Source: Phycisphaera sp. (GTDB taxonomy: Bacteria > Planctomycetota > Phycisphaerae > Phycisphaerales > UBA1924). Taken from it: a DNA stretch of 64,000 bases. The stretch lies in assembly GCA_025916675.1 (NCBI GenBank), contig CP098402.1, positions 739,205 to 803,204 of the forward strand, in the 5' to 3' direction. The notes beneath the pieces were generated by a model. The model worked only from the letters and a program-made list of their open reading frames with translations. It was not told the origin of the DNA and searched no databases. The translations under genes were made by a program, and so were the position numbers. This document shows positions 7,175 through 30,611 of the stretch, one piece after another; the first letter of the stretch is position 1, and each line of letters opens with the position of its first letter.

Positions 7175-7204
7175 GCCGAGGGAGGCTAGGCCGCAGCGGG
7201 TGGA

Positions 7205-8617: not shown

Positions 8618-8670
8618 GTCTGCATCTTCCCCAGTCTTGCCAACGGGGAGAAGCGGCCCGTCAGGCGTGT

Positions 8671-9873
8671 TTATGCGGTCTTGTCGAGCACCTCGATGGC
8701 CTCGAAGCGCTTGCCCTCGAGCATCTCCACCGAGGCCCCGCCACCGGTGGACACATGGGTGATATCGGTCGCTAGGCCCATCGCATCCAGTGCGGCCGCA
8801 GAATCGCCGCCACCCACTATCGTGGTCGCCCCATCGCGGGTGGCCCGCACAAGGGTTTCGGCCACCGTACGCGTGCCCTTGTCGGCACCGGGCCACTCGA
8901 AGATGCCCATGGGACCATTCCACAGCACCGACTTCGCGCCGGCGATGCGTGACACGTACAACTCGGCTGTTTTGGGTCCGATATCGACAGCGACCGCGTT
9001 GTCGGGGATGCGCTCCTCGGCTCGGGTGGGGGCACCATGATCGAACTTGTCTGCCACCATGTGGTCGATCGGCAGCAGCAAATCGACGCCCGCCGCCTTG
9101 GCCGCCGCCATCGCGCTTTCGGCGGTCGAAACGTGATCTTCCTCGACTAGGCTCGTACCCGTGGGATCGCCCTTGGCGCTCATGAACGTGTAGGCCATCG
9201 CCCCGCCGATGAGCATCGCGTCGCACTTAGGCAGTAGGTGCTCGATCGCGCCGATCTTGCTCGACACTTTCGCGCCACCGAGAATCACCACCATCGGCCG
9301 CGCCGGGTTGGCGACCGCTTCGCTCAGGAATGCCAATTCCTTCTCGACCAATAAACCCGCGACCTTGGGCTTGTCAACCATCGCGCGCGGCACGGCGACC
9401 ATCGACGCATGGGCCCGGTGGCACGTGCCGAACGCGTCGTTGACGTATAGATCTCCGTACGCCGCCAGCTTGGCCGCGAACCCGGCGTCGCCGTCCTTCT
9501 CGGCCTTGTGGAACCGCAGGTTCTCCAACAGGATCACACCGCCGGGCTTGAGCTTCTCAACAGCCTTGGCGGCGTCTTGGTCAACACAGTCCTTCGAGGG
9601 AAACGCGACGGGCCGGCCGAGTAACTCCGAAAGATGGCCTGCGACGGGTTCGAGCGAGAACCGCTCCTCGTACCCCTCGCCCTCGGGCCGGCCCATGTGG
9701 CTCATCAGCACGACGCTGCCGCCGCGGTCGAGCACGCTCCTGATGGTGGGGAGGGCCGATCGGATGCGGCGATCATCGGAGATCGCGCCGCCGTCCATGG
9801 GCACGTTGAAGTCCACGCGGACAAGGGCCCGCTGGCCGTCCACGGGGGTCTGGTCGATGGTCCGCGTTGGCAT
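8671..9873 (-). CDS. pgk: Phosphoglycerate kinase
   Basis: 400 residues, the normal length for bacterial PGK, which interconverts 1,3-bisphosphoglycerate and ADP with 3-phosphoglycerate and ATP in glycolysis. The signature RVDFNVPMDGGAISDDRRI (substrate-binding region), the loop LMSHMGRPEG, the hinge and nucleotide motifs NGPMGIFEWP, and the C-terminal GGGDSAAA are all present. It starts 21 bases after the atpH stop, so it is probably cotranscribed with the F0 genes of ATP synthase, and sthA follows at 53 bases. Linking pgk to an atp cluster is unusual but makes metabolic sense. Confidence 0.96.
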   Translation of the reverse strand: MPTRTIDQTPVDGQRALVRVDFNVPMDGGAISDDRRIRSALPTIRSVLDRGGSVVLMSHMGRPEGEGYEERFSLEPVAGHLSELLGRPVAFPSKDCVDQDAAKAVEKLKPGGVILLENLRFHKAEKDGDAGFAAKLAAYGDLYVNDAFGTCHRAHASMVAVPRAMVDKPKVAGLLVEKELAFLSEAVANPARPMVVILGGAKVSSKIGAIEHLLPKCDAMLIGGAMAYTFMSAKGDPTGTSLVEEDHVSTAESAMAAAKAAGVDLLLPIDHMVADKFDHGAPTRAEERIPDNAVAVDIGPKTAELYVSRIAGAKSVLWNGPMGIFEWPGADKGTRTVAETLVRATRDGATTIVGGGDSAAALDAMGLATDITHVSTGGGASVEMLEGKRFEAIEVLDKTA

Positions 9874-9894
9874 TGGGGTGCCCCTCGAAAGAAA

Positions 9895-10539
9895 TCAGGC
9901 GTCGTCTGGCGTCTGGTCTTCAGTCTCGGCGTTCGCGTCGATCATCTCGCCAACGCGAGCCCGAACCCGGGCCGCGCCGTCCTGGCCCAGTTGGTCGCGC
10001 ATGCGGCGTAGGCGCGTCGCGATGGAGCCGTCCACCAGCCGGTCACCAAACCGCAGCTTGAGCCCGCCGATCATGGCCGGGTCGTTGCGATGGTGCGCCA
10101 CGACCTCCTTGTCGAGCGCGGCAGCCAACCGGTCGCGGATGGTGCTCAGGTCGGCCGAACTGATCGGCCCGGCGGTGTGGACGTCGATCTCAAGGCGGCC
10201 GAACGCCTCCTGTGCCTTCTCGTGGAAGGCCTGGATCATCGACGGCAGGCGTCCGAGCCGGTCCTTGTCGTTCAGAACCAGCAAGAACGTCAGCGTGCGG
10301 GTGCTGACCTTGCCCTCCAGGATCTTGCGAAGCGACGCCGCACGGCTTCTGGCGGGCAGCACCTGCGAAGCCAGGAACTCGTTGAACGCCGCGTCCTGGC
10401 GCGCCATCTCGAGGATGGCGTCGAGCTCGTCGAGGGTCTCCTGGACGGCAGCATCACCACCGGCCTTCTGGCAGACCTCGAACAGGCTCGTGGCGTAGAC
10501 CTCCGACAGCGCGTCGGGCGGGGTTTCGAGAAGCGGCAT
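9895..10539 (-). CDS. atpH: ATP synthase F1 delta subunit
   Basis: 214 residues, somewhat longer than the usual 180. The delta (OSCP) subunit ties the F1 head to the peripheral stalk. The six-helix N-terminal domain is visible (YATSLFEVCQKAG...). The C-terminal signature is clear: DPAMIGGLKLRFGDRLVDGSI, matching the family pattern dp.LiGGl.v.igd...D.Si. The last 15-20 residues form an acidic tail. It is preceded 35 bases upstream by atpF and followed 21 bases downstream by pgk instead of the expected atpA. This is the only F1 gene in the window. Confidence 0.92.
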   Translation of the reverse strand: MPLLETPPDALSEVYATSLFEVCQKAGGDAAVQETLDELDAILEMARQDAAFNEFLASQVLPARSRAASLRKILEGKVSTRTLTFLLVLNDKDRLGRLPSMIQAFHEKAQEAFGRLEIDVHTAGPISSADLSTIRDRLAAALDKEVVAHHRNDPAMIGGLKLRFGDRLVDGSIATRLRRMRDQLGQDGAARVRARVGEMIDANAETEDQTPDDA

Positions 10540-10574
10540 GCCTGGGGACTCCCGGGTGCGGAAGGAAGAAAAAC

Positions 10575-11195
10575 CTAGTTGTTCGAGGCCTTCCGGCCCG
10601 ACTCGAACTCGCTGAGTGCTTGCTCAACCAGGCGGGTCTGGTCCTGCTCGCTCACCTCGCGCTCGAGGATCTTGCTGGCCATGAGCGTGGCCAGGCGGGC
10701 CGACTCGGCGTACAGCTCATTCACGGCAACGCGCCGGGCGGCGTCGATGTCGCGCTGGGCACGCTCACGCATCCGTGCGATCTCCGCGTCGGCCTTCGAG
10801 CGCAGCTCAGCGGTGAACTCGGCCTGGCGGGCCTTGGTGTCGGCCAAGATACGCTGGGCCTCGCCGCGAGCCTCGGTGAGCTGGCTCTCGTAGCGCTCCT
10901 TCATCGCGTCGGCCTCGGCCAGCGCGCGCTTGGAGGCCTCGAGGCCCTCGAGGATCTTGCGATCACGCTCCTCGAGCCCCTTGGCGACCGGCGGCCAGGC
11001 GAACTTCCACAGGATGAAGAACACGATGCCGAACACCAGCAGGGCGGCGATCATCATCGGCACGCCTTGCTTGATGCCGGGGATCACCGTGCCCTTTTTA
11101 CCGGCTTCATCGGCGGCCATCGCGATGGCGGGCAGCAGGAGGACGGCCGCCGATGCGACCATCCCCGAGCTCGATTGAATCAGTGAACGTCGCAT
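10575..11195 (-). CDS. atpF: ATP synthase F0 b subunit, with signal-peptide-like extension
   Basis: 206 residues from the ATG at 11195. An earlier in-frame ATG at 11216 reads through GAGGAGG, which is clearly the ribosome site for 11195. The b subunit forms the peripheral stalk. The conserved membrane segment is PMMIAALLVFGIVFFILWKF, followed by the hallmark PPVAKGLEERDRKI and a long charged helix. Before the membrane segment there is an extra signal-peptide-like stretch, MRRSLIQSSSGMVASAA...AIAMA-ADE, with a plausible cleavage site. The c subunit upstream has a similar extension. The gene sits between atpE and atpH in standard order. Confidence 0.92.
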   Translation of the reverse strand: MRRSLIQSSSGMVASAAVLLLPAIAMAADEAGKKGTVIPGIKQGVPMMIAALLVFGIVFFILWKFAWPPVAKGLEERDRKILEGLEASKRALAEADAMKERYESQLTEARGEAQRILADTKARQAEFTAELRSKADAEIARMRERAQRDIDAARRVAVNELYAESARLATLMASKILEREVSEQDQTRLVEQALSEFESGRKASNN

Positions 11196-11248
11196 CGCGA
11201 CCTCCTCTGCGCGCACCGAGGCTCTCGGTGCGATAGCGAGCGGCAGAC

Positions 11249-12673
<1,425 letters not shown>

Positions 12674-12674
<1 letters not shown>

Positions 12675-13162
12675 CAACGCGTGCCTCCACTCGTGCGATC
12701 TACCGAAGCCGGGTCTACCGAAGCCAGGTCAACCGGAACCGTCTGGTGCTCGCGGAAGCTCTTGAGGGCCATCCCACAATCGACGGCGACCGCCGTGAGC
12801 CCGCCCGCCAGCATGGCGAACCACAAACCGAGCCCCATCGTTGGCGCGGCGAACGCCAAAGCAATGCCAGACACGATCAAAACCATCAAACGGATGGTGG
12901 AAAGGGCAAGCCAGGCCATCCCGGCGGTTGTCACGCGATAGGGCCCTGTGAGGGTTGCCGCGCCCCAGGCCAGCACCCACGAGCCCGTGAGCAGGCCCGC
13001 GGCCACCACACCGCCCATTAGCGAGTCGCCCTCGGCCCCGGCGGCCAGCGCCAGGCCCGCACCGAACGCCGACGCCACGATGGACGCGGCGATGCCAATA
13101 CCCGTGGCCTTGGGGCCATACAGGGGGATATGGGCGGTGTTGTCGGGCGTGTTCTGGGTCAT
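12674..13162 (-). CDS. AtpI-like membrane protein at head of atp operon
   Basis: 162 residues from the ATG at 13162 (MTQNTPDNTAHIPL). The frame runs to 13252, but the first 30 residues are Pro/Arg-rich and lack a ribosome site. Four hydrophobic segments are visible, with PYRVTTAGMAWLALSTIRLM in the middle, and the C-terminus is soluble and Ser/Thr-rich. Its position directly upstream of atpB, with a one-base stop/start overlap, is that of AtpI, a helper for c-ring assembly or Mg2+ supply. The sequence itself is too divergent for me to identify, so the name rests on position. Confidence 0.6.
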
Positions 13163-13340
13163 GCTCAGAGATTCCGGGATTGGGCCTGCCGGTGGCTCCG
13201 GCGAGGGGGCGTAAGAGTAGCGGGCATGGGGGCATTTTGCGAGCCGACGCAACTCCGACGGGCGACCGTTCGTGGCGTATCCTCGCTCTCGTGCCCGGGC
13301 TCCGGGGAGATTCTTCGGTGGGGTGAACTATGGAGAGCAC

Positions 13341-14282
13341 ATGACCGACGCCACGGCGGGGCCCATCTCGAAGCTTCGTGACAACATCGCCTCGGTGTTC
13401 ATGGGCAACCCCAAGGCCGTCGACCGCGTCCTGCGCACGATGCTGGCCGGCGGGCACCTGCTGATCGAGGACGTCCCGGGCGTGGGCAAGACGGTGCTGG
13501 CCGGGGCCATCGCGCGGAGCGTGGAGGCCAAGCTGGCGCGGGTGCAGATGACCCCCGACCTCTTGCCCAGCGATATTTTGGGTGTGAGCATCTATGACCG
13601 CGAGCGGGGCGAGTTCAGCTTCAAGCCAGGGCCGATCTTCGCCAACATCGTGCTGGCCGACGAGATCAACCGGACCACGCCGCGCACGCAGACGGCGTTG
13701 CTCGAGGCCATGAGCGAGGCGACCGTGTCGATCGACGGCGTCAGCCACCCGCTGCCCAAGCCCTTCATGGTCATCGCCACGCAGAACCCGTATGACTTCG
13801 AGGGCACCTACCTGCTGCCCGAGAACCAACTCGACCGTTTCCTGATGCGCACTCGATTGGGCTACCCCGACCCCAAGACCGAGGTGCAGGTGCTCGAGCG
13901 TCGGCCGGCCAGCAATGCGCTGCCGCAGCTCCGGCCTGTGATGCCGCTGGAAACGCTGATCGAACTGCAGCAGAAGGCCAGCGCCGTGCGGGTGGACGCG
14001 AAGATCCTCGAGTATGTCGTCGCGATCGCCGGCGCGACGCGCCGCTCGCCCGACCTGCGGCTTGGCCTTTCGCCCCGCGGCGCGCTCGCGCTCACGCAGG
14101 TCGCCCGCGCCACGGCGCTGATCGACGGCCGCGACTACGTGGTGCCCGAGGACGTGCTGGACAACATCATGCCCGTGGTCGCCCACCGCCTGATTATTCG
14201 GGGCGGGCTCGAGCAGAGCGACGGGCGCGAGGCCGAGAGCATCCTCGACGGGATCATCCAGGGGGTCGAGGCGCCGACGTAA
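13341..14282 (+). CDS. MoxR-family AAA+ ATPase
   Basis: 313 residues from the ATG at 13341 (MTDATAGPIS), which has GGAGAG just upstream. MoxR ATPases act as chaperones, often helping metal-cofactor or von Willebrand-domain proteins. The Walker A motif is DVPGVGKTVLA at about residue 45. Walker B is IVLADEINRTTPRTQ near 105, followed by the family sensor ATQNPYDFEGTYLLPE. The C-terminal lid holds SPRGALALTQVARA. The expected DUF58 and vWA genes are not next to it; the next gene is on the other strand. It lies divergently from the atp operon. Confidence 0.92.
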   Translation: MTDATAGPISKLRDNIASVFMGNPKAVDRVLRTMLAGGHLLIEDVPGVGKTVLAGAIARSVEAKLARVQMTPDLLPSDILGVSIYDRERGEFSFKPGPIFANIVLADEINRTTPRTQTALLEAMSEATVSIDGVSHPLPKPFMVIATQNPYDFEGTYLLPENQLDRFLMRTRLGYPDPKTEVQVLERRPASNALPQLRPVMPLETLIELQQKASAVRVDAKILEYVVAIAGATRRSPDLRLGLSPRGALALTQVARATALIDGRDYVVPEDVLDNIMPVVAHRLIIRGGLEQSDGREAESILDGIIQGVEAPT

Positions 14283-17344: not shown

Positions 17345-17495
17345 GGTTGAAGTCCTATTGACTCGAGAAATGATCACGTTGTTCCTCTGTACGGGTCAAT
17401 GTGGGGTCTGATGCGTTAAACCACGGTGTTTGGGGCATTTTCTTTGCCACATTTGTGCAAGTCCCCTTGCATCAACGGCTTGGATCGGTCAGAAT

Positions 17496-18884
17496 ATGGG
17501 CATGTTCCGATCCCTCGCCGTGACGTGTGCCGCCATTCTTGCTACGTTCGCCTCAGCCGACGAGGGGTGTGAGCCCCAGCGGGTTGTTTCGCCGCCAGTC
17601 ACACACACAACCGGTTTCGGAGGCTCAGCCGCGACCAACGGGCGGTTCTGGTTCGTGAGCGATGCTCAGGCCCGAATTGGCTGCTGCACCACCGGGGCCG
17701 TCTATGTCTACGAGGATATCGAGGGCAGGCTCGTCCACACACAGACACTGGTGCCTCACGACGCGGCCTCGTTTGACATGTTCGGCACGTGGCTCGACGC
17801 CGACGGCGATCGCCTCGTCGTAGGCTCGTACAACACCGGATGGCCAACAACAACCGGCCGAGGTGGCGGCTTCGTGTACGAGTTCGACGGCGACGAGTGG
17901 GTCGAGACCGCGAGGCTGGTGCCGCCGTTGTTGTTCAGGGGAATAGGTTGGGGAACATTCGTCGTTCTCGATGGCGACACAGTTGTCGTGTCTCCGATTT
18001 TTACTCTCCAGAAACACATCTACACGCGAGGTATCGACGGTTGGGAAATGAGCCAGACTATCGAGGCACCCGATGGCCTGCCTAGCTCAGCATCCTTCGG
18101 TGCGATCACCGCATTGAAGGACAACTGGCTGTTTGCCAGCGCCGTCCGGGACAGTTCCCTCATTCGCGACGGCGGCTCGGTCTATGTGTTCCGCCGGGAT
18201 GCGGATGGAGAATTCGAGTTTACGCAAAAGATCCTCCCGCCCGAGCCTTACATCGACAATCGCGAGTTCGGCGATTGGATCGCCTTCGATGGCCGAACCC
18301 TGGCGATCTCGGCCCGTCGAGTCGAGCGGGAATTCGAGTTCCAGGGAGCCGTGTTCATCTACGAACTGGAAGGCGACCAGTGGGTGATGCGCCAGGAGTT
18401 AAACCACAGCAACCCAGAAGAGGGTGACGAATTGGGCCACCGCATGGCTCTCACTGGTGATCTTCTACTCGCTCGTACCAATCGTAACGGCAGCGACCCG
18501 GGCCACGACGGCACCGTGCTGCGTTTCGAGCGTGACGCCGACGGCCGGTGGCACGAGGTCGGACAACTCGTGCCGAATCCATTCAGCTACGCGGGTTTCT
18601 ACGGCGTCTCGATCGCGACCGATGGCCAGCACACGCTCGTCGGAGCACCCGAAGACCACGCCGGCGGCACCTCGTGGCCCGGCGCGGCCTACTTCTTCGA
18701 CCTCACCTGCGGCGACTGCGAAGCCGACCTCGACGCCGACGGCACCCTCACCATCTTCGACTTCCTGACGTTCCTCAACCTCTTCCAAGACGGCGACGCA
18801 ACCGCCGACTTCGACGGCGACGGCGAGCTGACCCTCTTCGACTTCCTGGCGTTCCAGACGGCGTTTGATGCGGGGTGTGAGTGA
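17496..18884 (+). CDS. Secreted FG-GAP-like repeat protein with GC-type dockerin
   Basis: 462 residues from the ATG at 17496; the ATG at 17502 is equally possible. The signal peptide is MFRSLAVTCAAILATFASA. The body has about six repeats of a strand pattern such as GGSVYVFRRDADGEF and GGFVYEFDGDEW, each followed by LxxxxxFGxxxxLDGD. This resembles the FG-GAP/integrin-type beta-propeller common in planctomycete secreted proteins. The C-terminus has two copies of the dockerin motif, DLDADGTLTIFDFLTFLNLF and DFDGDGELTLFDFLAFQTAF, ending in DAGCE. It lies alone, divergent from the previous dockerin gene by about 150 bases. Confidence 0.75.
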   Translation: MGMFRSLAVTCAAILATFASADEGCEPQRVVSPPVTHTTGFGGSAATNGRFWFVSDAQARIGCCTTGAVYVYEDIEGRLVHTQTLVPHDAASFDMFGTWLDADGDRLVVGSYNTGWPTTTGRGGGFVYEFDGDEWVETARLVPPLLFRGIGWGTFVVLDGDTVVVSPIFTLQKHIYTRGIDGWEMSQTIEAPDGLPSSASFGAITALKDNWLFASAVRDSSLIRDGGSVYVFRRDADGEFEFTQKILPPEPYIDNREFGDWIAFDGRTLAISARRVEREFEFQGAVFIYELEGDQWVMRQELNHSNPEEGDELGHRMALTGDLLLARTNRNGSDPGHDGTVLRFERDADGRWHEVGQLVPNPFSYAGFYGVSIATDGQHTLVGAPEDHAGGTSWPGAAYFFDLTCGDCEADLDADGTLTIFDFLTFLNLFQDGDATADFDGDGELTLFDFLAFQTAFDAGCE

Positions 18885-18888: not shown

Positions 18889-19011
18889 AGGCATCGGGCA
18901 CTGGGCATAGGGCATCGGGGAAGAGAAGAGGAAGAGGGCAATCCGCAATTGGTCCGGAAACGATGCCGTTCCTCCGGCTCTTTCCTATTGCCAATTGCCA
19001 ATTTCCACTCT
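18889..19011. repeat. G-rich decamer repeat with inverted partner, copy 1
   Basis: Just after the dockerin gene stop there are four degenerate copies of GGGCAT(C/A)GGG-type decamers (18890-18920). A partner rich in TATTGCC and AATTGCC follows near 18984-19004, the reverse sense of the same motif. A close relative sits after the CPBP gene at 23866-23944. It looks like a dispersed intergenic repeat or folded transcript end. Confidence 0.5.
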
Positions 19012-19110
19012 TCAGCGGTCCGCCGCCGCTCCCGCCCGTGATTCCCGGACCGTCCGGATAGCAAAACCGCCCTGGCGCCCCCCCAGCCCCGATCGCGTCG
19101 GCGCAGCGCA

Positions 19111-19310
19111 ATTCTGTGGATCCACAAACTTCCGCTGCGCTAGCGCAGAACTATTCTGTGGATCCACAAACTTCCGCTGCGCTAGCGCAGAACTGTTCTG
19201 TGGATCCACAAACTCCCGCCGCGCTCGCGCAGAATTGTTCTGTGGATCCACAAACTCCCGCTGCGCTCGCGCAGAATTGTGTTGTGGATCCACAAACTCC
19301 CGCCGCGCGT
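19111..19310. repeat. Array A: five 42-base units, palindromes every 21 bases
   Basis: Five tandem units start at 19111, 19153, 19195, 19237 and 19279, exactly 42 bases apart. Each has the perfect palindrome TGTGGATCCACA centred after unit base 10. In units 1-2 a second palindrome, CTGCGCTAGCGCAG, is centred after base 31, so palindrome centres fall exactly 21 bases apart. A third, weaker dyad (CAGAA-N3-TTCTG) spans each unit junction. Units 1 and 2 are identical; later units diverge by single bases and the last decays. All frames stay open because 42 is a multiple of 3, giving a 14-residue peptide repeat that is probably not translated. It lies between the 3' ends of a dockerin gene and ppc. 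Confidence 0.9.
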
Positions 19311-19461
19311 CCGCGGGCTTCCCCGGGCGATGCACGAGGCCCCGCCGCGGGCGGGGCGGGCGAGGGGGATTCTCGGACGCCCCAGTCCTTCGAGCCCTTC
19401 GTGCCCTTCGCGTTGAACATAAGAACGCCCGGGCTGGCGGCCGGGCCTCGTTGGGAAGGCC
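19311..19461. other. Non-coding tail after array A
   Basis: GC-rich stretch between array A and the ppc stop. It contains CCTTCGAGCCCTTCGTG and CCCTTCGCGTT, a short C/T-rich repeat that reappears near 37364-37384. No gene is seen. Confidence 0.4.
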
Positions 19462-22128
<2,667 letters not shown>

Positions 22129-22194
22129 GCGGCATTGTTCGGCCGCCGCGCACGAAAAACGCCCCGCTGGTTTCTCAACCGGGGGCGTCATCAA

Positions 22195-22268
22195 CACGGG
22201 TGTAGGGATTCGAACCCCAAACCTCCTGATCCGTAGTCAGGTGCTCTATCCAATTGAGCTACACCCGC
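22195..22268 (-). tRNA. tRNA-Arg (anticodon ACG)
   Basis: A complete cloverleaf can be folded. The acceptor arms GCGGGTG and CACCCGT pair (with one G-U at the end). The D arm is GCTC...GAGC, the anticodon stem is CCTGA/TCAGG with loop CTACGGA (anticodon ACG, reading CGU and, after deamination, CGC/CGA), and the T arm is TGGGG-TTCGAAT-CCCTA. The discriminator is G and the CCA end is not encoded. It lies 66 bases upstream of the ppc start on the same strand. Confidence 0.95.
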
Positions 22269-22305
22269 AACGACTCGCTGGGTCTGGCCCGGCGAGTCGA
22301 GGGCG

Positions 22306-22335
22306 ATAGTAGCACCGGTGGCCGGGGTGTGACAA
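22306..22335 (-). promoter_or_regulatory. Sigma-70-like promoter for tRNA-Arg
   Basis: On the minus strand TTGTCA (22335-22330), an 18-base spacer and TACTAT (22311-22306) match the -35 and -10 consensus well. Transcription would start near 22300, about 30 bases before the tRNA. Confidence 0.5.
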
Positions 22336-22424
22336 TGGGAGGCGGTGGGCTGGTGGGTGGCCTTGGGTTTGGGCTCGGGCGGTTGGCGCGGGCGGGATTG
22401 CTTGGATTGACGAGGGTGGGGGGC

Positions 22425-22453
22425 TTGATTGGGGGGGGCGTGGGCGTCATAAT
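22425..22453 (+). promoter_or_regulatory. Sigma-70-like promoter upstream of rpsT, G8 spacer
   Basis: TTGATT (22425-22430), a 17-base spacer and CATAAT (22448-22453). The spacer begins with eight consecutive G (22431-22438). The start would lie about 210 bases before rpsT, leaving a long GC-rich leader in which I see no other feature. The rest of the 22269-22670 gap is G-rich and holds no gene. Confidence 0.45.
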
Positions 22454-22670
22454 TCACCCACTCCACGGGGGCTGTGGCGGGCGGTTGTCGCCGCTTGGCA
22501 CGGCCGTGGGGGCCCGCCCGGACCGACTCTCAGCGGATTGGCACGCTCGATGGTGCCGGCTGTGGGGTCTGGGTTCGGCCTAGACTTGTCTCGGCTCCAC
22601 GAAACTGGCCAATGGCTCGGCAGGATCGGTCCCATCGAGGGTCGGTCTCCCGGAGAGGAATGGATCGCAC

Positions 22671-22946
22671 ATGGCTCACACCGTCTCTGCCCGCAAGCGC
22701 AACCGACAGAACCTCCGCCACCGCGCCCGCAACCGCTGGCGCCTGCAGGCCATGCGCGCCGCGATCAAAGACTTTAACGACAAGCTGGCCCACGGCTCGG
22801 TCGATGAGGCCAAGGCGGCCTTCCTGGTCGTGCAGAAGGTGCTGGATCGCACCGCCTCGAAGGGCGTGATCCACCCGAATCAGGCGTCTCGCCGCAAGAG
22901 CCGCCTGAACGCGAGGCTGAAGGCCCGTGTTCTTTCGGGCAACTGA
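22671..22946 (+). CDS. rpsT: 30S ribosomal protein S20
   Basis: 91 residues, the standard length. S20 binds 16S rRNA early in small-subunit assembly. The N-terminus MAHTVSARKRNRQNLRHRARNR is the Lys/Arg-rich S20 signature. The C-terminal half has KGVIHPNQASRRKSRLNARL, matching the conserved KG.Ihkn.AaRkKSRL motif. A GAGAGGA ribosome site lies upstream. It is monocistronic, with a strong terminator 26 bases downstream and a possible promoter at 22425. Confidence 0.96.
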   Translation: MAHTVSARKRNRQNLRHRARNRWRLQAMRAAIKDFNDKLAHGSVDEAKAAFLVVQKVLDRTASKGVIHPNQASRRKSRLNARLKARVLSGN

Positions 22947-22971
22947 GCGAAGCGACAAGCAGTCACTGATC

Positions 22972-23001
22972 AAGCCCGCCGCATTTTGGCGGGCTTTTTG
23001 T
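22972..23001 (+). terminator. Intrinsic terminator of rpsT
   Basis: AAGCCCGCC (22972-22980) pairs with GGCGGGCTT (22988-22996) across a 7-base loop, followed by TTTTGTTTCTT. A textbook hairpin plus U-run. Confidence 0.85.
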
Positions 23002-23031
23002 TTCTTCCGTAGCACGGTTTACCATCGCACC

Positions 23032-23862
23032 ATGCCGAGACAGGGCAAAGCACGGACGACGAGCCGGGCTCGTGACCATCACCGGCGCGAGCCCGACCTG
23101 TGCCAGGGCCCTGCCCTGGCCGAGTACGCCCGCGCGTCGCGGTCGCCGTTGCACATCCTGGCGTTCTTGCTGCCGCTAATCGTGATCTACGAGGTCGGCT
23201 TGGCCATGCGACACGAGGAACTCGCCCAGACCGGCGGCGTTCGTGCGTGGGTGCTGCTGGCCCAGGCGATGGAGGGGCTGGGCGTGTCGGCGTCGACGGT
23301 GGTGGGGTACTCGCTGCCGGCGGCGGTGGTAATTGTTGTGCTGCTGCTGTGGCATGTGTTCGAGAAGCGGCGGTGGCGGCTGCGGCCGATGGTGGTGCCG
23401 CTGATGTTCGCCGAGGCGGTGGCGTGGATGGTGCCGCTGCTGCTGTTCGCGGGTGTGGTGACGCGGATCAGCGAGCCGGCGCCGGCCTCCACGCCCCCGC
23501 TTGTCCCCGCGAGCCTCGACGCCCTGGGCCACCTGAGCTGGCAGGCTCGGCTGGTGATCGCCATCGGGGCAGGGCTGTACGAGGAATTGCTCTTCCGCAT
23601 GGCCCTGCTCGCCCTGCTGCACGCGGTGCTGGCCGACCTGTGCAAGCTGGGGCCAAAGGTGGTGGTGGCCATCGGACTGCCCATCTCGGCGGCCGCGTTC
23701 ATGCTGTACCACGACGTGGGCGTGCTCACCTGGCCGGCGTTGTTGTACCTGGTGGGCGGGTTGTACCTGGGGGCGATCTACCTGCTGCGGGGCTTCGGGC
23801 TGGCGGTCGGGGCGCACGCGTGTTATAACACGACGGTGCTGGTGTTGCTGGGGCCGGCGTAG
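23032..23862 (+). CDS. CPBP-family intramembrane glutamic endopeptidase
   Basis: 276 residues from the ATG at 23032 (MPRQGKARTTSRARD); the frame upstream passes through the rpsT terminator. It is a multi-pass membrane protein with about seven segments. The Rce1/CPBP motifs are visible: YEELLFRMALL (the EExxxR-type catalytic Glu pair with Arg), then HDVGV and GAHACYN in later helices. Family members cleave prenylated or peptide substrates in the membrane, or serve bacteriocin immunity; the substrate here is unknown. The N-terminal 40 residues are basic and soluble. Confidence 0.85.
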   Translation: MPRQGKARTTSRARDHHRREPDLCQGPALAEYARASRSPLHILAFLLPLIVIYEVGLAMRHEELAQTGGVRAWVLLAQAMEGLGVSASTVVGYSLPAAVVIVVLLLWHVFEKRRWRLRPMVVPLMFAEAVAWMVPLLLFAGVVTRISEPAPASTPPLVPASLDALGHLSWQARLVIAIGAGLYEELLFRMALLALLHAVLADLCKLGPKVVVAIGLPISAAAFMLYHDVGVLTWPALLYLVGGLYLGAIYLLRGFGLAVGAHACYNTTVLVLLGPA

Positions 23863-23865
23863 GGG

Positions 23866-23944
23866 CGGGGCAATGGGCAATAGGCAATGGGGCAGAGGCG
23901 GAGGGTAGTGGTCTTTCCGAACCCATTGCCCATTGCCTCTTCTC
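23866..23944. repeat. G-rich decamer repeat with inverted partner, copy 2
   Basis: GGCAATGGG / GCAATAGGC / AATGGGGCAG-type repeats at 23866-23895 are followed by the inverted partner CCCATTGCCCATTGCC at about 23922-23937. The arms can form a long hairpin between two convergent genes. It is related to copy 1 at 18889-19011. Confidence 0.55.
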
Positions 23945-24866
23945 ACGGGCACCCCGCGTCGAAGGCGTTCTGGAAGGCCAGGAAGTCGAACAGCGTGAGG
24001 CTGCCGTCGCCGTCGAGGTCGGCGGCCAGGTCGCCGGCGTCGAAGAGGTTCTGGAAGCACAAGAAGTCGAAGAGGTCGAGGCTCCCGCTGAGGTCGCAAT
24101 CGGCGTCGCAAGGGCGGATGATCGCCGTGTCGTAGATCCTCACCTGATCGATGGTGCCCAGGAACTCGTCGTTGGCTCCCGTGGTCGGGCTGCCACTAAA
24201 GCGGCCGCGTCCACCGATCGATAGCTCGAAATCGTTCTGGGCCGTCGAGCCGAAGCCCGCGGGGATGCGCACGACCGCCTCGATGACGCCATCGATAGCC
24301 ATGGCCAAGCGGTCATCCACACGGACGGCAACCACTTCGTGCGCCCGCCCGTCGTTGACCGGTGTCACGCTGCGCAGCCCCACGCCCAGCACGCCATCCG
24401 CCGAGATCGAGAACGTGGCCACGCCGTCGTCCCGGCGCACCGTGAGGGCCCAGCCATCATCGGAGCCCGACTTCTCCTTGTTCACGACGAACCGTCCGCC
24501 CTCGGCACCCGGCTCGGTGTTGGACGTTACGACCGTCACCGCGATGGAAAAGTCACCGTCCGCCAGGTCGAAGGCGTCCTCATCGCCCAGTGGGCGGACC
24601 TGCCCATCACCGGTGCTGTCGAAGCCCAGCGCGAGCCCGCCCATGAACGGGACGAACTCGATGCCCCCGCCGATCTGTCCGTCGTAGGCGGGGCCCAGCG
24701 TGCCCAGATTGGCGGTCGGGCGCAGGCCATCATCGAAGTCGTAGTGCAGGATGGGGTCGGCACCCTGCCCCAGCGCGGATGCCGCGCACGCCAGTAGGCC
24801 GGCGGCGGCCAGCAGCCGGGCGGTGGGGACGGCCGGGGGGGCCACGAGGTCTTGGATCCGGGGCAT
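23943..24866 (-). CDS. Secreted LamG-like protein with GC-type dockerin
   Basis: 307 residues from the ATG at 24866 (MPRIQDLVAPP), with a good AGGAG upstream. The signal peptide is ARLLAAAGLLACAASALG. Residues about 35-245 resemble a LamG/concanavalin-A-like jelly roll: ILHYDFDDG at the start, WALTVRRDDGVATFSISADG in the middle, and the family ending EFLGTIDQVRIYDTAI. The C-terminal dockerin pair is DCDLSGSLDLFDFLCFQNLF and DLDGDGSLTLFDFLAFQNAF, ending DAGCP. Probably a cell-surface carbohydrate-binding or adhesive protein. Array B fills the 5' region. Confidence 0.8.
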   Translation of the reverse strand: MPRIQDLVAPPAVPTARLLAAAGLLACAASALGQGADPILHYDFDDGLRPTANLGTLGPAYDGQIGGGIEFVPFMGGLALGFDSTGDGQVRPLGDEDAFDLADGDFSIAVTVVTSNTEPGAEGGRFVVNKEKSGSDDGWALTVRRDDGVATFSISADGVLGVGLRSVTPVNDGRAHEVVAVRVDDRLAMAIDGVIEAVVRIPAGFGSTAQNDFELSIGGRGRFSGSPTTGANDEFLGTIDQVRIYDTAIIRPCDADCDLSGSLDLFDFLCFQNLFDAGDLAADLDGDGSLTLFDFLAFQNAFDAGCP

Positions 24867-24922
24867 GGAGATTCTCCTGGCCGCCAGCATACCCGAAACC
24901 GGCCCCGCACGCAAGCCGAAAT

Positions 24923-25174
24923 GTGGCGGTTCGGAAGGGTTCCGCGGTAGCTCCGAGGGTCCCGGTGGCGGTTCCCAGGCCCCCGGCGGTTGTTCCGAGG
25001 CGTTCTGTCATGGATCCGAACCATTCCGCGGCTGTCCGGCAGCCTCCGGAAGTTCTTCTGGAGCATTCCGAAGCTGTTCTAAAGGCTTGCGAAGCTGTCC
25101 CGGACGATTCTGTTGTTGTTCCGGAGGATTCTGAACTTCGTTTACGCGGACCTTGGGGCCGTTCTCGGACGCAC
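24923..25174. repeat. Array B: at least ten degenerate 21-base units
   Basis: Units begin at 24923, 24944, 24965, 24986, 25007, 25028, 25049, 25070, 25091 and 25112 with no slippage; two more decayed units can be traced to 25174. The most constant part is GTTCCGGA near unit bases 7-14, then TTCC or TTCT at the unit end, so short TTCC/GGAA dyads recur at about 10-11 and 21 bases. Individual units differ at a third to a half of positions, so the register is kept although the sequence is not. It lies just upstream of the LamG-dockerin gene (minus) and of tRNA-Glu (plus). Confidence 0.8.
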
Positions 25175-25302
25175 TTTGCGCAGGTCGTGCGCGGTCTGGC
25201 GGGGTGGCCGGAGAAATGTGGCGTGGCCGCGGGCGGCTCGTGGTTGGCGTTGGCGGCGGTTTGCTTGTGGGCTCGCTCGGGCGGTCGTCCGCCTCCAGCC
25301 GG

Positions 25303-25331
25303 TTGACCGCGACCCACATCGCTGGTAGCGT
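25303..25331 (+). promoter_or_regulatory. Promoter for tRNA-Glu
   Basis: TTGACC (25303-25308), a 17-base spacer and TAGCGT (25326-25331). The start would fall near 25338, about 22 bases before the tRNA. Confidence 0.5.
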
Positions 25332-25359
25332 TGCCTCTGGCGTTTTCGTTTTGCCGACT

Positions 25360-25434
25360 GGCCCCATCGTCTAGTCTGGTCCAGGACGCCAGGTTCTCAT
25401 CCTGGAAACCCGGGTTCGAATCCCGGTGGGGTCA
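25360..25434 (+). tRNA. tRNA-Glu (anticodon CTC)
   Basis: The cloverleaf folds fully. Acceptor GGCCCCA pairs with TGGGGTC, the anticodon stem is CCAGG/CCTGG with loop TTCTCAT (anticodon CTC, reading GAG), and the T arm is CCGGG-TTCGAAT-CCCGG. The discriminator is A and no CCA is encoded. The last 3 bases overlap the stop codon of the convergent XapX-type gene. Confidence 0.95.
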
Positions 25435-25656
25435 TTCGCCCGCGGCGGTCTCAGGACTGTCGCGGGTTTCTTCTTGGGACGGCGGCTCGACCTGGGGCGG
25501 CAGCAGGCCGTCGGCTGCCAGGTAGCCCAGGGTGACGGCCAGCACTAAGACCGCCCCGATCAGGCGGTTGGGGGCGGGCACGGGGATGTCGATCCAGCGG
25601 CAGAAGGCGCCCAGGGCGAAGGCCAGGGCGACGCCGGCGATGGTCTTGATGAGCAT
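25432..25656 (-). CDS. XapX/DUF1427-type small membrane protein
   Basis: 74 residues with two membrane helices, residues 2-18 and 33-50, separated by the diagnostic turn CRWIDIPVPAPNRLIG. That turn matches the XapX (DUF1427) pattern r....vPsPaPp.l.g. The C-terminal 20 residues are acidic and soluble. The family is found near xanthosine-utilisation genes but has no proven function. A GGAGAG ribosome site precedes the ATG. Its stop codon lies inside the 3' end of tRNA-Glu. Confidence 0.75.
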   Translation of the reverse strand: MLIKTIAGVALAFALGAFCRWIDIPVPAPNRLIGAVLVLAVTLGYLAADGLLPPQVEPPSQEETRDSPETAAGE

Positions 25657-25844
25657 GGGGCTCTCCTCTATGGGATGGTGGCTCAGCAGGCTGATGGGCG
25701 GCAGGCGGGAGACCCGCAGATTGCGGCCGCCGGGGGGTCGGAATCCGGGGTTGTCCGATCTATGATCGGCCCTTTACGCGAGCCGACCGTGACAAGCCGG
25801 CCAGGTTGATCGCCGCAGAATCTCGTACAGAGGGATCCCGTTCC

Positions 25845-28691
25845 ATGCCCGTATCATCGATGCCGTCGCTGCCCCCCCTGCCCATTACCCTGGGGGCCAT
25901 CAGCGACATCCCCGCACCGTACTACGTCGCCCCGATTGCCGGCGTGGCCGCCATCGCCACGGCGATCTACCTGCGCGGCAGCGTCATGAGCAAGCCCGAG
26001 GGCGAGGGCGAGACGGTCCGCATCGCCCAGGCCGTCCGCGACGGCGCGATGGCCTACCTCAAGAGCCAGTACAAGGTCGTGGGCATCGTGTTCGTGCTGC
26101 TCATCGCCGTGCTGGGGCTGATGGTCTGGGGCAAGCTCGAGCCCGTGTGGGCCATGGTGGGCGTGCCCATCGCCGGCTTCCTGAGCGGCCTGTGCGGCTG
26201 GTTCGGCATGCGGATGGCGACCAACGCCAGCGCCCGGACCGCCACGGCGTGCCAGACGAGTTTGAACGATGGGCTGACCGTTGCCTTCCGCTCGGGCGCC
26301 GTCATGGGCCTGACGTGCGTGGGCGTGGCGATCCTTGACCTGAGCTTCTGGTACTTCTTCTTCATCGGGTTTGGCGACAAGCTCGGGGCGTTCAGCCTGT
26401 CCGAGCCGGGCAACCGCGAGGGCCTGCTGGCCGCGATGGTGACGGTCCTGATCTCCTTCAAGATGGGCGCGTCGCTCCAGGCCCTGTTCGCCCGGGTGGG
26501 CGGCGGCATCTTTACCAAGGCGGCCGACGTGGGTGCCGACCTTGTCGGCAAGGTCGAGGCCGGCATCCCCGAGGACGACGCGCGGAACCCGGCGACCATC
26601 GCCGACAACGTTGGTGATAACGTCGGCGACGTGGCGGGCATGGGCGCCGACCTGTACGAGAGCTACTACTCGAGCATCATCGCCGCCATCGCCCTTGGCG
26701 TGTCGGCGGCCTTTAGCGTGACGGTCCTCCGCGGCATGGAGGGCGGCTTCGACCTGGCCATGAAGGTCGGCACGCTGCCGATCGTGCTGGCCGGCGTGGG
26801 CATCATCGCCTCGATCATCGGCGTGTTCGCCGTCAGGACGAAGGAAGACGCGGGCTTCAAGGACCTGCTCAAGAGCCTGCACAAGGGCGTGTGGCTCTCG
26901 TCGTTCCTGCTGCTGGTCGCCGCGTTCGGCGTGCCGTTCCTGCTGCTTGGTGACGCCGAGACGGCCCGCGTGCTGGGCGTGAAGTGGTGGCAGTTCGGCG
27001 GGTCGATCTCGGCCGGCCTCATCAGTGGCCTGGTGATCGCCTGGTGGACCGAGTATTGCACCAGCTACGAGCACCCACCCACCAAACGCATCGCGGCCCA
27101 GGCCATCACCGGGCCGGCGACGGTCATCATCACTGGCATCGCCGAGGGCATGAAGAGCACGTGGCTGTCGATCTTCGCGGTCGTGGTCGCCATCCTCGTG
27201 GCCTTCGGTGTCGCGGGCGGCAACGAGAACCTGTTGATGGGTTTGTACGGCGTGGGTATCGCGGCCGTGGGTATGCTGGCGACGCTGGGCATTACGCTGG
27301 CGACCGACGCGTACGGCCCGATCGCCGACAACGCGGGCGGCAACGCGGAAATGAGCGGCCAGCCTCCCGAGGTGCGCGAGCGCACCGACCTGCTCGACTC
27401 GATCGGCAACACGACGGCCGCCACGGGCAAGGGTTTTGCCATCGGCTCGGCCGCGCTGACCGCGCTGGCCCTGCTGGCGGCGTACGTGCAGGTGGTGCAG
27501 TACCACGTGAACAAGCAGACGACGAACTTTGCCAAGGAGCAAGCGGCGCTGGTGAGCACCGCCGGCCCGGGCACCTACGCGGTGTACGAGGGCCACCGCC
27601 GCTTTGGCATCTTCACGCAAGACGAGGACAACGAGACGACGTACACCGGCGGCGCGCTCGTGCTGGACAACTTCCAGTTCGACGAGATGGGCGACCAGGG
27701 CGACCTGCCCAAGAACGAGATCATGGACCAGTTCCTGCGGGGCGACTCCTTCGCGGTGAGCTGGGCGGGCGAGGGGACCGACCTGCGGCTGCAGCGGAAC
27801 CTCACGCTCACCGGGGGCATCACCCACGGTGATCATGTGCACGACGGCATCGAGCTGCGCGTGGTCAACACCAGGCAGGTCTCGATCTCGGACGTGCTGC
27901 TGTTCTACAACGTCTCGATGACCAGCCCGACGCTGCTGGGCGGGCTGTTCATGGGCGTGATGCTGACCTTCCTCTTCTGCGCCCTGACCATGGACGCGGT
28001 GGGCAAGGCCGCCAACGTCATGATGCAGGAGTGCCGCCGCCAGTTCGGCGAGATGCGGACCCTGTTCCGCAAGCAGGGCATGAGCGAGGAGGACATCGCC
28101 AACCCGCAGAGCTGGCCGACGCAGGTCGGCTCGGGCACCGAGACCTACCCCGATTACGCCCGCTGCGTGACCATTGCCACCAACGGTGCGCTCAAGGAAA
28201 TGGTGCTACCGAGCATCCTGGCGGTCGTCGTGCCCGTGGCGACGGGCATGATCCTGGGCGTCAGCGGCGTGATGGGGCTGCTCGCGGGCGGGCTGATTAC
28301 GGGCTTCGCGGTGGCGGTCTTTATGGCCAACGCCGGCGGCGCGTGGGACAACGCCAAGAAGCTGCTGGAGAGCTACGGCCGCATCACCGCGACCGACGCG
28401 CTCAACGATGCGGCCCAGCGTGAGAAGATCCCCGAGGTGATCCGTGGCGACATCCTCATCCGCGCCAAGGAGATGGTCGCGGCCGGCCACGGCGACGAGT
28501 GCGTCTACGGCAAGGGCAGCGACGACCACAAGGCCACCGTCGTGGGCGACACCGTGGGCGACCCCTTCAAGGACACCAGCGGCCCATCGCTGAACATCCT
28601 GATTAAGTTGCTCTCGTCGGTGGCGGTGGTGTTTGCTGGGTTGGTGGTGAAGTTTGCCCCGGCGATCGGCGCCGCGCTCGGCCTGAGTTGA
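25845..28691 (+). CDS. hppA: Membrane-bound ion-translocating pyrophosphatase, with large insert
   Basis: 948 residues from the ATG at 25845 (MPVSSMPSLPP), with GAGGGA upstream; the usual length is 650-800. It couples pyrophosphate hydrolysis to H+ or Na+ export. The catalytic motifs are intact: DVGADLVGKVEAGIPEDD, DNVGDNVGDVAGMGADL, and near the C-terminus GDPFKDTSGPSLNILIKL. GNTTAATGKGFAIGSA has Ala where K+-independent enzymes have Lys, so a K+-dependent type is predicted. About 130 soluble residues (about 547-680) are inserted between two helices and include GTYAVYEGHRRFGIF and DLRLQRNLTLTGG. The insert has no recognisable domain. The gene is monocistronic with a strong terminator. Confidence 0.94.
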   Translation: MPVSSMPSLPPLPITLGAISDIPAPYYVAPIAGVAAIATAIYLRGSVMSKPEGEGETVRIAQAVRDGAMAYLKSQYKVVGIVFVLLIAVLGLMVWGKLEPVWAMVGVPIAGFLSGLCGWFGMRMATNASARTATACQTSLNDGLTVAFRSGAVMGLTCVGVAILDLSFWYFFFIGFGDKLGAFSLSEPGNREGLLAAMVTVLISFKMGASLQALFARVGGGIFTKAADVGADLVGKVEAGIPEDDARNPATIADNVGDNVGDVAGMGADLYESYYSSIIAAIALGVSAAFSVTVLRGMEGGFDLAMKVGTLPIVLAGVGIIASIIGVFAVRTKEDAGFKDLLKSLHKGVWLSSFLLLVAAFGVPFLLLGDAETARVLGVKWWQFGGSISAGLISGLVIAWWTEYCTSYEHPPTKRIAAQAITGPATVIITGIAEGMKSTWLSIFAVVVAILVAFGVAGGNENLLMGLYGVGIAAVGMLATLGITLATDAYGPIADNAGGNAEMSGQPPEVRERTDLLDSIGNTTAATGKGFAIGSAALTALALLAAYVQVVQYHVNKQTTNFAKEQAALVSTAGPGTYAVYEGHRRFGIFTQDEDNETTYTGGALVLDNFQFDEMGDQGDLPKNEIMDQFLRGDSFAVSWAGEGTDLRLQRNLTLTGGITHGDHVHDGIELRVVNTRQVSISDVLLFYNVSMTSPTLLGGLFMGVMLTFLFCALTMDAVGKAANVMMQECRRQFGEMRTLFRKQGMSEEDIANPQSWPTQVGSGTETYPDYARCVTIATNGALKEMVLPSILAVVVPVATGMILGVSGVMGLLAGGLITGFAVAVFMANAGGAWDNAKKLLESYGRITATDALNDAAQREKIPEVIRGDILIRAKEMVAAGHGDECVYGKGSDDHKATVVGDTVGDPFKDTSGPSLNILIKLLSSVAVVFAGLVVKFAPAIGAALGLS

Positions 28692-28730
28692 GTTCCCGCC
28701 GGGCGGCTTCGGTCGCAATTCCGACACTCC

Positions 28731-28765
28731 ACCGGCCCGCGGTACGCTGCGGGCCGGTCTTTTTG
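28731..28765 (+). terminator. Intrinsic terminator of hppA
   Basis: ACCGGCCCGC (28731-28740) pairs with GCGGGCCGGT (28749-28758) across 8 bases, then CTTTTT. Confidence 0.85.
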
Positions 28766-28922
28766 TAAGAAAAATTTTATTTAGAAATTTCAGTTAGCCC
28801 TTGATGCATCGCTGGGTCGCGTGCGACCGAACTCGGTTCGGACCCGCTTCCAGGCATACGGCGGAGACCGGGGCGACGTTGCCTCTGGCGCTGTCGTACG
28901 CCCGCACGCGAAGGAGATGACG

Positions 28923-30530
28923 ATGTCAAAGACTCGATTCAGTATCGCACGCACCGCAACGGGCATGACGGCCGCGGCCGCCATCGTTGCCGCTGCGGGC
29001 GCGGCCGCGCTGATGACGCCCGCAACGCTCGCTTCGAGCCACAGCGATGCGCCGCTGATCAAGCAGGACCCCCAGGCCAACCTCACCGACGTGTACGCGT
29101 TCGTGGGCACCAAGTACGACGATCCGAGCGTCGAGGTGCTCAACGTGATCGCCAACGTCCGGCCCTTTTCCGAGCCGGGCGATGGCCCGCACTACGAGCG
29201 GTTCGCCGACGATGCGCGGTACAGCCTACACGTCACCAACCCGACCAGCGGCGAGACGCTCATCCGCTACGACTTCACGTTCTCGGCCGTCGACGGGGGC
29301 CTCAAGAACCCGAATACGATCCTCAGCTACGGGCTGGGCACCGAGCCCGGGGCGATCATGGAGATCGGCGACGCCCGGCAGAACTTCACCCAGACATACG
29401 AGGTCGAGCGCTTCGACTCGGCCGGCTCGGCCACGATCGTTGCCGATGCGGCCGTCGCGCCGCCCAACCCCGGCAACCGGGTGACGCCGCTGTACAACGA
29501 CGCCGACGGGTTCGCCATCTCGGGTGCCCGCTCGCTCGACGAACTCGACGGCTACACCCGGCAGGCCATAACCAATGGCGCCGACGGGACGACGTTCTTC
29601 GCCGGCCCGCGTGACGACAGCTTCTTTGCCGACATCCCCGGCGTGTTCGACCTGCTCAACCCCCGCATCCTCGATCGCAACGGCGACCTGGGCGACGGGC
29701 TGGGCCAGGACGGCGACGGCGTGGACGGCTTCAAGGGCTTCAACGTGCTCACGGTTGCCGTCCAGATCCCGCTGAGCGACCTGCCCCAGTTGCCCTACTC
29801 CGACGCGTTCTTCGGCGATCAGGTGGGCGTGGGCGTGTTCGCCTCGGTCAGCCGCCGCCAGTTCACCGAGCGCGTGGCCGGCGACGAGTTCCGCTCCACC
29901 GGGCCTTGGGTGCAGGTGAACCGTCTGGGCAACCCACTGTTTAATGAGGCGCTCGTCGCTCTGGCCGACAAGGACCGGTTCAACGCGACCGATCCTGTCG
30001 ACGACGCCCAATTCGCCACGTATGCCGAGAATTCCGAGCTGGCGACGCTGATCAACCTGGTGTACGGCACCGACTTTGCAACCAGCGGCCGCGCCGACCT
30101 CGTGGCGGTGTTCATCCCCGACGTGCTCCGCGTGGCGACGACCACGGGTCCGGTCCGCTTGTCGGGCGACGACGGGTTCAGTCGCCTGGGCTTCATCGGC
30201 GGCGACGTGACCGCCGACATGGGCGGCGTCTCGAGCGGCTGGCCCAACGGGCGGCGCTTCGGCGACGACGTCATCGACATCGCTCTCACGGCGGTCGCCA
30301 GCGGCCCGGATTACAGCGCCATCACGCTGGTGGGCGACAACATTCCCGGCAACGACCTGGCGTACAACGGCGTGTTCCCCTACGCCGCCACGCCGCACGC
30401 GGGCAGTGCCAATAGCAAGGACAAGGTGCTGACCGACTTCGAGATCGCCGACATCGATGAGGATGGCGAGATCACGATCTTCGACGTGCTCGAGTTCTTC
30501 AACATCTGGGAGCGCGCTGGCGCGTTCTGA
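28923..30530 (+). CDS. Secreted DUF4331 protein with C-terminal dockerin-like repeat
   Basis: 535 residues from the ATG at 28923; AGGAG at 28912-28916 fits this codon and not the ATG at 28917. The N-terminus is a signal peptide (TGMTAAAAIVAAAGAAALMTPATLA). It is followed directly by the DUF4331 signature SSHSDAPLIKQDPQANLTDVYAFVG. The rest of DUF4331 follows (RPFSEPGDGPHYERFADDARYSLHV, DGFKGFNVLTVAVQIPL). The last 35 residues add a single dockerin-like hand, DIDEDGEITIFDVLEFFNIW. DUF4331 proteins are exported and of unknown function. A DUF4198 gene follows 81 bases downstream, probably in the same functional unit. Confidence 0.88.
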   Translation: MSKTRFSIARTATGMTAAAAIVAAAGAAALMTPATLASSHSDAPLIKQDPQANLTDVYAFVGTKYDDPSVEVLNVIANVRPFSEPGDGPHYERFADDARYSLHVTNPTSGETLIRYDFTFSAVDGGLKNPNTILSYGLGTEPGAIMEIGDARQNFTQTYEVERFDSAGSATIVADAAVAPPNPGNRVTPLYNDADGFAISGARSLDELDGYTRQAITNGADGTTFFAGPRDDSFFADIPGVFDLLNPRILDRNGDLGDGLGQDGDGVDGFKGFNVLTVAVQIPLSDLPQLPYSDAFFGDQVGVGVFASVSRRQFTERVAGDEFRSTGPWVQVNRLGNPLFNEALVALADKDRFNATDPVDDAQFATYAENSELATLINLVYGTDFATSGRADLVAVFIPDVLRVATTTGPVRLSGDDGFSRLGFIGGDVTADMGGVSSGWPNGRRFGDDVIDIALTAVASGPDYSAITLVGDNIPGNDLAYNGVFPYAATPHAGSANSKDKVLTDFEIADIDEDGEITIFDVLEFFNIWERAGAF

Positions 30531-30611
30531 TTAAATTCATCTCTCATACCCCTGTCGCGACGCGTTGACGCGCCTCGCGGCAATTTACAACACCCATCGA
30601 AGGAACACCCC

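Follow-up and report, generated by a model that had tools for sequence, protein, structure and literature searches.

In iterons and other arrays of direct-repeat binding sites, spacing near two helical turns puts the sites on one face of the helix, and iterons share one sequence and lie beside a Rep gene. The attC/attI system of integrons, which has a tyrosine integrase, combines accessory genes beside a conserved site with variable palindromic DNA that is recognised by its shape. CRISPR arrays consist of identical repeats and unique spacers. A RAYT (Y1) transposase goes with REP sequences of the GTAG families. REP sequences and BIMEs (the GTAG and CGTC families) are short, dispersed and clustered extragenic palindromes in which dimers of unlike units are possible, and they have been reported in Planctomycetes, according to PMC3733652. 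PARCEL repeats, as PMC2996958 describes them, are tandem repeats with dyad symmetry and varying sequence in accessory or membrane-protein genes; they are 75-nt coding repeats within ORFs and specify a 25-residue motif. The literature compared also included prokaryote satellites (PMC6749651) and planctomycete dockerins (PMC6461901). In the literature searched, in which subscription papers were few, we found no account of 21-bp palindrome arrays with locus-dependent sequence and a common head. The locus analyzed here, array A, is a member of a genus-specific family of dispersed, apparently non-coding elements of this kind, found so far in one planctomycete genus.

Array A and its repeat unit

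The window, the whole stretch of 64,000 nucleotides that was analyzed, corresponds to G000:C1:739205-803204 in a single-contig genome of 3.6 Mb. The core of array A (19112 to 19308, no strand assigned) was delimited by Tandem Repeats Finder as 4.7 copies of a 42-bp unit, equivalent to about nine dyad-symmetric units of 21 bp, and its symmetry exceeded that of 500 column permutations (p = 0.008). The 21-bp register continues more widely, from approximately 19089 to 19340 with degenerate units at the edges, as judged from a listing of units and a periodic hairpin score; this stretch, too, has no strand assigned. A tail module, GGGCGATG...GATTCTCGGACGC (19309 to 19380, + strand), was recognized by eye as common to array A and related arrays of G001, the genome of the genus nearest to this one in the set compared (L040, L041 and L042), and was not seen by eye in the arrays of G006 or G004 that were compared.

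Array A lies between convergent genes, one ending at 18884 and the other at 19462. The gene on its head side (17430 to 18884, + strand; the start may be 17496) encodes an FG-GAP protein with a C-terminal GC-type dockerin (NF041540, E = 6.3e-11; PF14312, E = 1.3e-22). The gene on its tail side (19462 to 22197, - strand) encodes phosphoenolpyruvate carboxylase (ppc; PF00311, E = 1e-220). The spacer after the dockerin gene (18890 to 19010) is filled by runs such as GGGCACTGGGCATAGGGCATCGGG and CAATTGCCAATTTCC, and similar strings occur near an array of G006 (L088). On the ppc side, at 19410 to 19450, there is a bidirectional terminator-like hairpin, AACGAGGCCCGGGC..GCCCGGGCTTTC, several copies of which lie beside arrays (L040:9068-9100; L042:5572-5690); it looks like a separate dispersed repeat.

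An earlier note on this DNA had described array A as two perfect palindromes in alternation. The first, TGTGGATCCACA, does recur every 42 bases in five units (19115, 19157, 19199, 19241 and 19283), and with up to one mismatch it was found five times in the window compared to 0.15 expected from shuffles. The second, CTGCGCTAGCGCAG, is perfect at 19135 and 19177 and has two mismatches at 19219 and one at 19261, so that perfection of both palindromes holds for the first part of the array and not for the rest. In units 1 and 2 the centre of CTGCGCTAGCGCAG is indeed 21 bp from each neighbouring centre of TGTGGATCCACA. These two units had been called identical; in fact they match at 41 of 42 bases, and units 3, 4 and 5 match unit 1 at 37, 38 and 30 of 42 bases. 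The genome-wide search for the palindromes that had been proposed was carried out: the 3.6-Mb genome contains five exact copies of TGTGGATCCACA, all of them in array A, and with up to one mismatch there are three copies of CTGCGCTAGCGCAG in array A and one elsewhere.

The true period is 21 bp, and both palindromes of array A are variants of one dyad-symmetric unit. With array A as the query, related arrays were detected in G001 (E = 1.8e-24) and, more weakly, in G004 and G006. These consist of tandem palindromes every 21 bp with other letters, for example TGCGCCGGCGCA, TGCGGATCCGCA and TTCTGCGCGAGCGCAGAA. The G001 array beside the orthologue of the dockerin gene (L040:9199-9413) contains one TGTGGATCCACA, five CTGCGCTAGCGCAG and one hybrid of the two, TGTGGTAGCGCA. 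Because both palindromes are mixed with a hybrid there, and because likeness is greater at a distance of two units than of one in just 17 of 43 arrays, we interpret the 42-bp alternation in array A as a local higher-order repeat in which two copies of one unit have diverged; the earlier step from two different palindromes to two proteins is not supported. Array A is the extreme of the 43 arrays in this respect, with an excess of two-unit likeness of 0.53 (the next is 0.22).

A second 21-bp dyad array in the window, array B (44771 to 44872, no strand assigned; unit CAGTGGGCACTGAGACGAGCT; Tandem Repeats Finder), has significant symmetry over its four units (p = 0.022). No head was recognized by eye, and array B probably belongs to the same family. 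The GC-dockerin gene beside it (43854 to 44921, - strand; NF041540, E = 1.9e-9) overlaps the array in its longest ORF, and a start at 44657 avoids the overlap. When periods of 15 to 63 were scanned for rows of five hairpins in 464 kb of the same genome (the own genome), period 21 gave eight and period 42 gave four high-scoring positions, the most of all periods; periods 17, 26, 30 and 36 gave one cluster apiece. In 20 evenly spaced 20-kb stretches of the own genome (400 kb) there was no array above the five-hairpin score, which is strict and misses weaker arrays.

Conserved head, unit symmetry and neighbouring genes

A conserved head, GTCCGGATAGCAAAACCGCCCTGGCGCCCCC..., lies at 19046 to 19084 on the + strand, in register with the 21-bp units. 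It was matched at G000:C1:758250-758288 (E = 2.7e-8) by model R1, a sequence-only model built from 13 heads of which that of array A is one; the head alignments held 14 and 13 loci. A five-base run was invariant in the 14 loci first aligned and is not found in all heads identified later. Run on 163 genomes of the family and 251 genomes of the order, the model gave 47 matches at E ≤ 0.001 in six of the 251 genomes. The six are different species of one genus and carry 5 to 11 heads each at this threshold, and a seventh member of the genus, G002, gave one weak match (E = 0.01). Elements of this family combine a conserved head of ~42 bp with some 4 to 24 units of 21 bp in a row, among which length changes are few.

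Arrays were sought in the 320 bp behind each of 49 heads, some of them weaker than E ≤ 0.001, by requiring that 21 be the best of lags 12 to 60 (20, 22 and 42 being set aside) with an identity of at least 0.5. By this test 43 of the 49 heads have an array, as do 30 of the 35 heads that were not used to train the model, compared to 1 of 48 on the upstream control side. Array A is among the six that fail, with a lag-21 identity of 0.45 and its best lag at 42; the others are G6C2 (0.46) and four heads that are weak or lack an array. No comparable array was found at 24 weak-head loci with E of 0.001 to 0.1 (L098-L121; 23 from other genera, which are part of the weak matches outside the genus, and L106 from G002). 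Their lag-21 identity was at best 0.55, compared to 0.63 to 0.89 in six controls from within the genus, and 21 was narrowly the best lag in four of the 24. There was no match in viral contigs searched with one exact head pattern, or in plasmids and phages searched with the array A region. Five of the 49 heads, without a usable array as judged by eye and autocorrelation (own588k-, own1814k, own1432k, G6C14 and G4C4e), were left out of the tests on 44 arrays described below.

What loci and species have in common is the 21-bp period and a dyad symmetry that spans the whole unit, more than the letters. In 38 of 45 arrays the units were more self-complementary about one axis than column-permuted controls (p < 0.05; 500 permutations each), and seven arrays were without significant symmetry; the combined p of about 5e-46 overstates the case because the arrays are related. 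The test was kept from being circular by placing the axis with one part of the unit and measuring pairing in a different part. With the axis taken from the outer pairs, pairing in the central 4 bp was 0.477, compared to 0.278 (sd 0.020) in permuted arrays, and with the reverse split, pairing in the outer part was 0.435, compared to 0.279 (sd 0.012). The symmetry takes in both the central 4 bp and the linkers. The letters vary even within one genome: the eight arrays of the own genome have about six consensus unit types, with 2 of 21 bases differing between the arrays at 415k and 1969k, 3 of 21 between those at 588k and 2007k, and the others far apart. The mean pattern over 45 arrays is YTYYNGGCGCGCCNRRAR, with at most 0.45 bit per position. 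Identity between adjacent units, by fifths of the array from the head, was 0.63, 0.71, 0.66, 0.59 and 0.46 (the last fifth may include sequence outside the array), a profile that fits either a border element or a neutral minisatellite. With symmetry of this extent, the data are compatible with array A being a structured or cruciform-prone DNA element. At two loci of G006 (L043:5126-5256 and L044:4669-4778) a second 21-bp sub-array, with an unpaired-looking core, TGTTTT (CGGCCCATGTTTTGTCCGCGG), lies between the head and the main array.

Among the genes examined, those that the head faces are often accessory, of dockerin and of restriction or defence type, and many of the genes on the tail side are housekeeping genes. 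Flanking genes were predicted by a simple in-house caller that had been trained on a single genome, and individual calls may be wrong. The NCBIfam profile for GC-type dockerins matched 17 of 41 head-side proteins compared to 6 of 40 tail-side proteins (Fisher p = 0.013). By a C-terminal dockerin motif the counts were 19 of 42 on the head side, 5 of 43 on the tail side and 17 of 409 genes in the 464-kb sample of the own genome. Dockerins are also enriched on the tail side, when the profile count there is set against this motif-based background (p = 0.011). In the own genome, GC-type dockerin matches number at least 150, or about one in twenty genes at the gene density of the 464-kb sample. Other head-side genes encode an HNH endonuclease, an Eco57I/BREX-like methylase, HEPN/Toprim, pentapeptide and Sel1 proteins and two Mrr-type nucleases; 4 of 10 head-side genes in one family scan had no family or only beta-helix. 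Tail-side genes include, among the families listed, ppc, gyrA, pheS, smpB, catalase-peroxidase and phosphoglucomutase (pgm). The head-side genes fit the host codon model worse, with a mean of 0.225 per residue compared to 0.276. The HNH protein beside one head (L125:1142-2047) gave a weak match to the HNH part of the IscB and Cas9d models, far below their cut-offs.

Synteny around array A

Array A lies at a synteny breakpoint. Genes 3 to 14282 of the window are collinear with contig C57 of G001, and the block of dockerin gene, head and array follows in both genomes (dockerin proteins 69% identical), preceded by two extra genes in the window and by another dockerin gene in G001. Beyond array A, the window continues with ppc and on to gene 30612. 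Beyond its array, G001 continues with homologues of genes 43079, 41979, 40108, 39376 and 37433, and then with a second dockerin gene, a head, and an array at the end of the contig. The block thus meets ppc in the window and the homologue of gene 43079-43837 in G001.

The run from ppc to gene 30612 is found on contig C128 of G001, which begins within an array. Over 137 bp, the start of C128 has 97.8% identity with the later part of the array on contig C29; the end of C57 matches the earlier part of that array at 96.6% identity over 205 bp. Because these two matches nearly abut, C57 and C128 were probably joined in one array that was collapsed in the assembly. With this join, the segment of the window from 19.4 to 43.8 kb would lie in the opposite orientation to its counterpart in G001, and array A would mark one of its ends. 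That C57, C128 and C29 end in or share near-identical palindrome arrays also makes copy number unreliable in short-read assemblies of the genus.

The region around array A has undergone more than one rearrangement in the genus, and not every change requires an array. In G003, gene 13341 directly adjoins gene 43079, without an array. Array B and its dockerin gene adjoin gene 43079, and G004 and G005 have a dockerin gene, a head and an array with other units on that same side of 43079. In G003 ppc is next to gene 45066, and in G004 and G005 gene 45066 is next to 30612 instead; no head or array was found at these joins. The orientation of the block from ppc to gene 30612 (19462 to 31475) beside gene 45066 thus differs between G003 and the other two, which we read as repeated inversion within the genus. 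Arrays at the own-genome locus 415k, at C50 of G001 and at C4b of G004 share flanks and have visibly different units, so arrays are not always mobile.

Weighing of explanations and comparison with known systems

A unit of 21 bp corresponds to seven codons, and from the head onward several arrays can be translated as open heptads (e.g. KPPWRPQEAF...ELLLTRQ). We therefore asked whether the arrays could encode a heptad protein; a coding repeat is what the earlier note had named as refuting its reading. Both 21 and 42 are divisible by three, and the KPPW frame of the head is free of stops in 18 of 41 arrays (three of 44 lacked an anchor and were left out). Against this, the differences between neighbouring units are even by codon position (1409:1366:1475), with no third-position excess, and stops across the 41 arrays number 45, 60 and 25 in the three forward frames; in the three reverse frames there are 54, 28 and 73. 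Every one of the six frames has stops in some arrays, there is no frame open across the family, and no conserved start codon was seen by eye. The codon-position and stop counts do not support a coding repeat, and we regard it as highly improbable. An RNA element, in which a row of hairpins or a long foldback would be transcribed and would stabilize or terminate transcripts (at array A, those of the ppc strand), seems quite unlikely. Shuffled sequences fold much less well than either strand of array A (z about -10), an outcome to be expected from any palindromic repeat. In 12 arrays hand-picked for good palindromes, wobble mismatches read from head to array were A.C in 77 cases and G.T in 16; the bias was kept in array A (8 vs 3) and in C57b of G001 (12 vs 0), and some heads hold a stem, AAACCGCCC..GGGCGGTTT. 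Over all 44 arrays, however, the totals are close (617 A.C, 576 G.T), G.U pairs in the folds run the opposite way to the wobble lean (344 vs 378), and in 26 of 44 it is the array-to-head strand that has the better fold energy. RNA was therefore no longer taken as the best explanation. The loop and linker are symmetric too, which counts against a simple RNA hairpin, since that would not need them to be self-complementary. The flanking genes have no consistent arrangement of 3' ends, and at the gathering score Rfam matched only two tRNAs in the window and no family overlapping array A. Strand preference over the whole family is slight at most. RNA was kept as a rival because 28 arrays lean the A.C way and 13 the opposite way, with three tied (44 arrays; p = 0.03), and a transcript at array A is conceivable because array A itself leans that way. 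Apparent compensatory changes such as these need control for strand and loop before RNA is claimed.

The explanation we tentatively favour, and consider close to evenly balanced, is that this genus-specific, REP-cluster-like DNA element forms a structured border, prone to recombination, between core genes and accessory genes. With a palindrome every 21 bp, or two helical turns, the element would renew its units through unequal exchange and template switching; accessory genes might be joined to the core at this palindromic DNA and segments rearranged there, much as if the element worked like a REP/BIME cluster. Weighing against such a role, recombination at the arrays rests on one well-resolved breakpoint, borders of accessory genes are prone to rearrangement anyway, and other joins of this region were rearranged without an array. 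The main rival, a neutral palindromic minisatellite, is possible though rather doubtful. Here slippage would set the 21-bp period, quasipalindrome template switching would keep the symmetry while the letters drift, and arrays would survive where accessory genes leave tolerant DNA. Symmetry with little conservation of sequence, little strand bias, the turnover of units at sites with shared flanks, and the fall in adjacent-unit identity from the second fifth to the last are all consistent with this, and the creation and repair of hairpin arms by template switching is reported in PMC8794818. A minisatellite fits less well with a head that is conserved in its 47 matches across six genomes while the arrays change, or with the recurrence of period 21 throughout, and the polarity from head to tail toward accessory and core genes would need a further cause. 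A binding array for one or two sequence-specific dimeric proteins with sites on one face of the helix, as the earlier note had proposed, is very unlikely: perfect dyads exactly two turns apart and the weak common pattern of the 45 arrays speak for it, but the information content of that pattern is low, unit sequences vary widely (though some loci share a consensus), and both palindromes of array A stand side by side with a hybrid in G001. It also seems unlikely, on present evidence, that head and dyad array together form a polar platform for attachment or rearrangement of accessory genes, read by shape and helical phase and not by sequence. If so, the letters would be free to drift at each locus provided that a palindrome came every two turns, and this would be a structure-addressed genomic border unlike integrons, REPs or CRISPR.

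The ~40 arrays in six genomes, each of a different species, keep period and symmetry and leave sequence largely free, and so they separate conserved shape from conserved sequence in DNA. They offer a natural experiment on whether symmetry comes from mutation, by template switching, or from selection. If the border role favoured above is real, the arrays would be a route by which planctomycetes build large repertoires of dockerin surface proteins and defence genes.

The spacing of the arrays near two helical turns resembles that of iterons, but their sequences differ from one array to another, and array A has a dockerin-type gene and ppc as neighbours and not a replication initiator. As in integrons, accessory genes lie beside a conserved site (the head) and variable palindromic DNA; unlike integrons, the arrays have many 21-bp units and not one folded site per gene. 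Their units stand head-to-tail without the spacers of CRISPR. They share tandem repetition, dyad symmetry, varying sequence and an association with accessory genes with PARCEL repeats, and differ from them in being 21 bp long and in showing no coding sign. The arrays also resemble REP sequences and BIMEs, with which they share the features given at the outset, unlike paired units included: they are dispersed extragenic palindromes within the 20-40-bp range (5 to 11 heads per genome, 43 of 49 with an array, no coding sign). They differ in their 21-bp tandem period and their conserved head, and perhaps in having several unit types per genome. The about six consensus types among eight arrays of the own genome may depart from a single sequence family, though genomes with REPs may also contain several, according to PMC3733652. 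By eye, the GTAG/CGTC tag is absent from the foot of the stem in the units of array A, and the head carries CGTCC. Because of this difference in the tag, we file the arrays as a variant of clustered extragenic palindromes and not as REP sequences.
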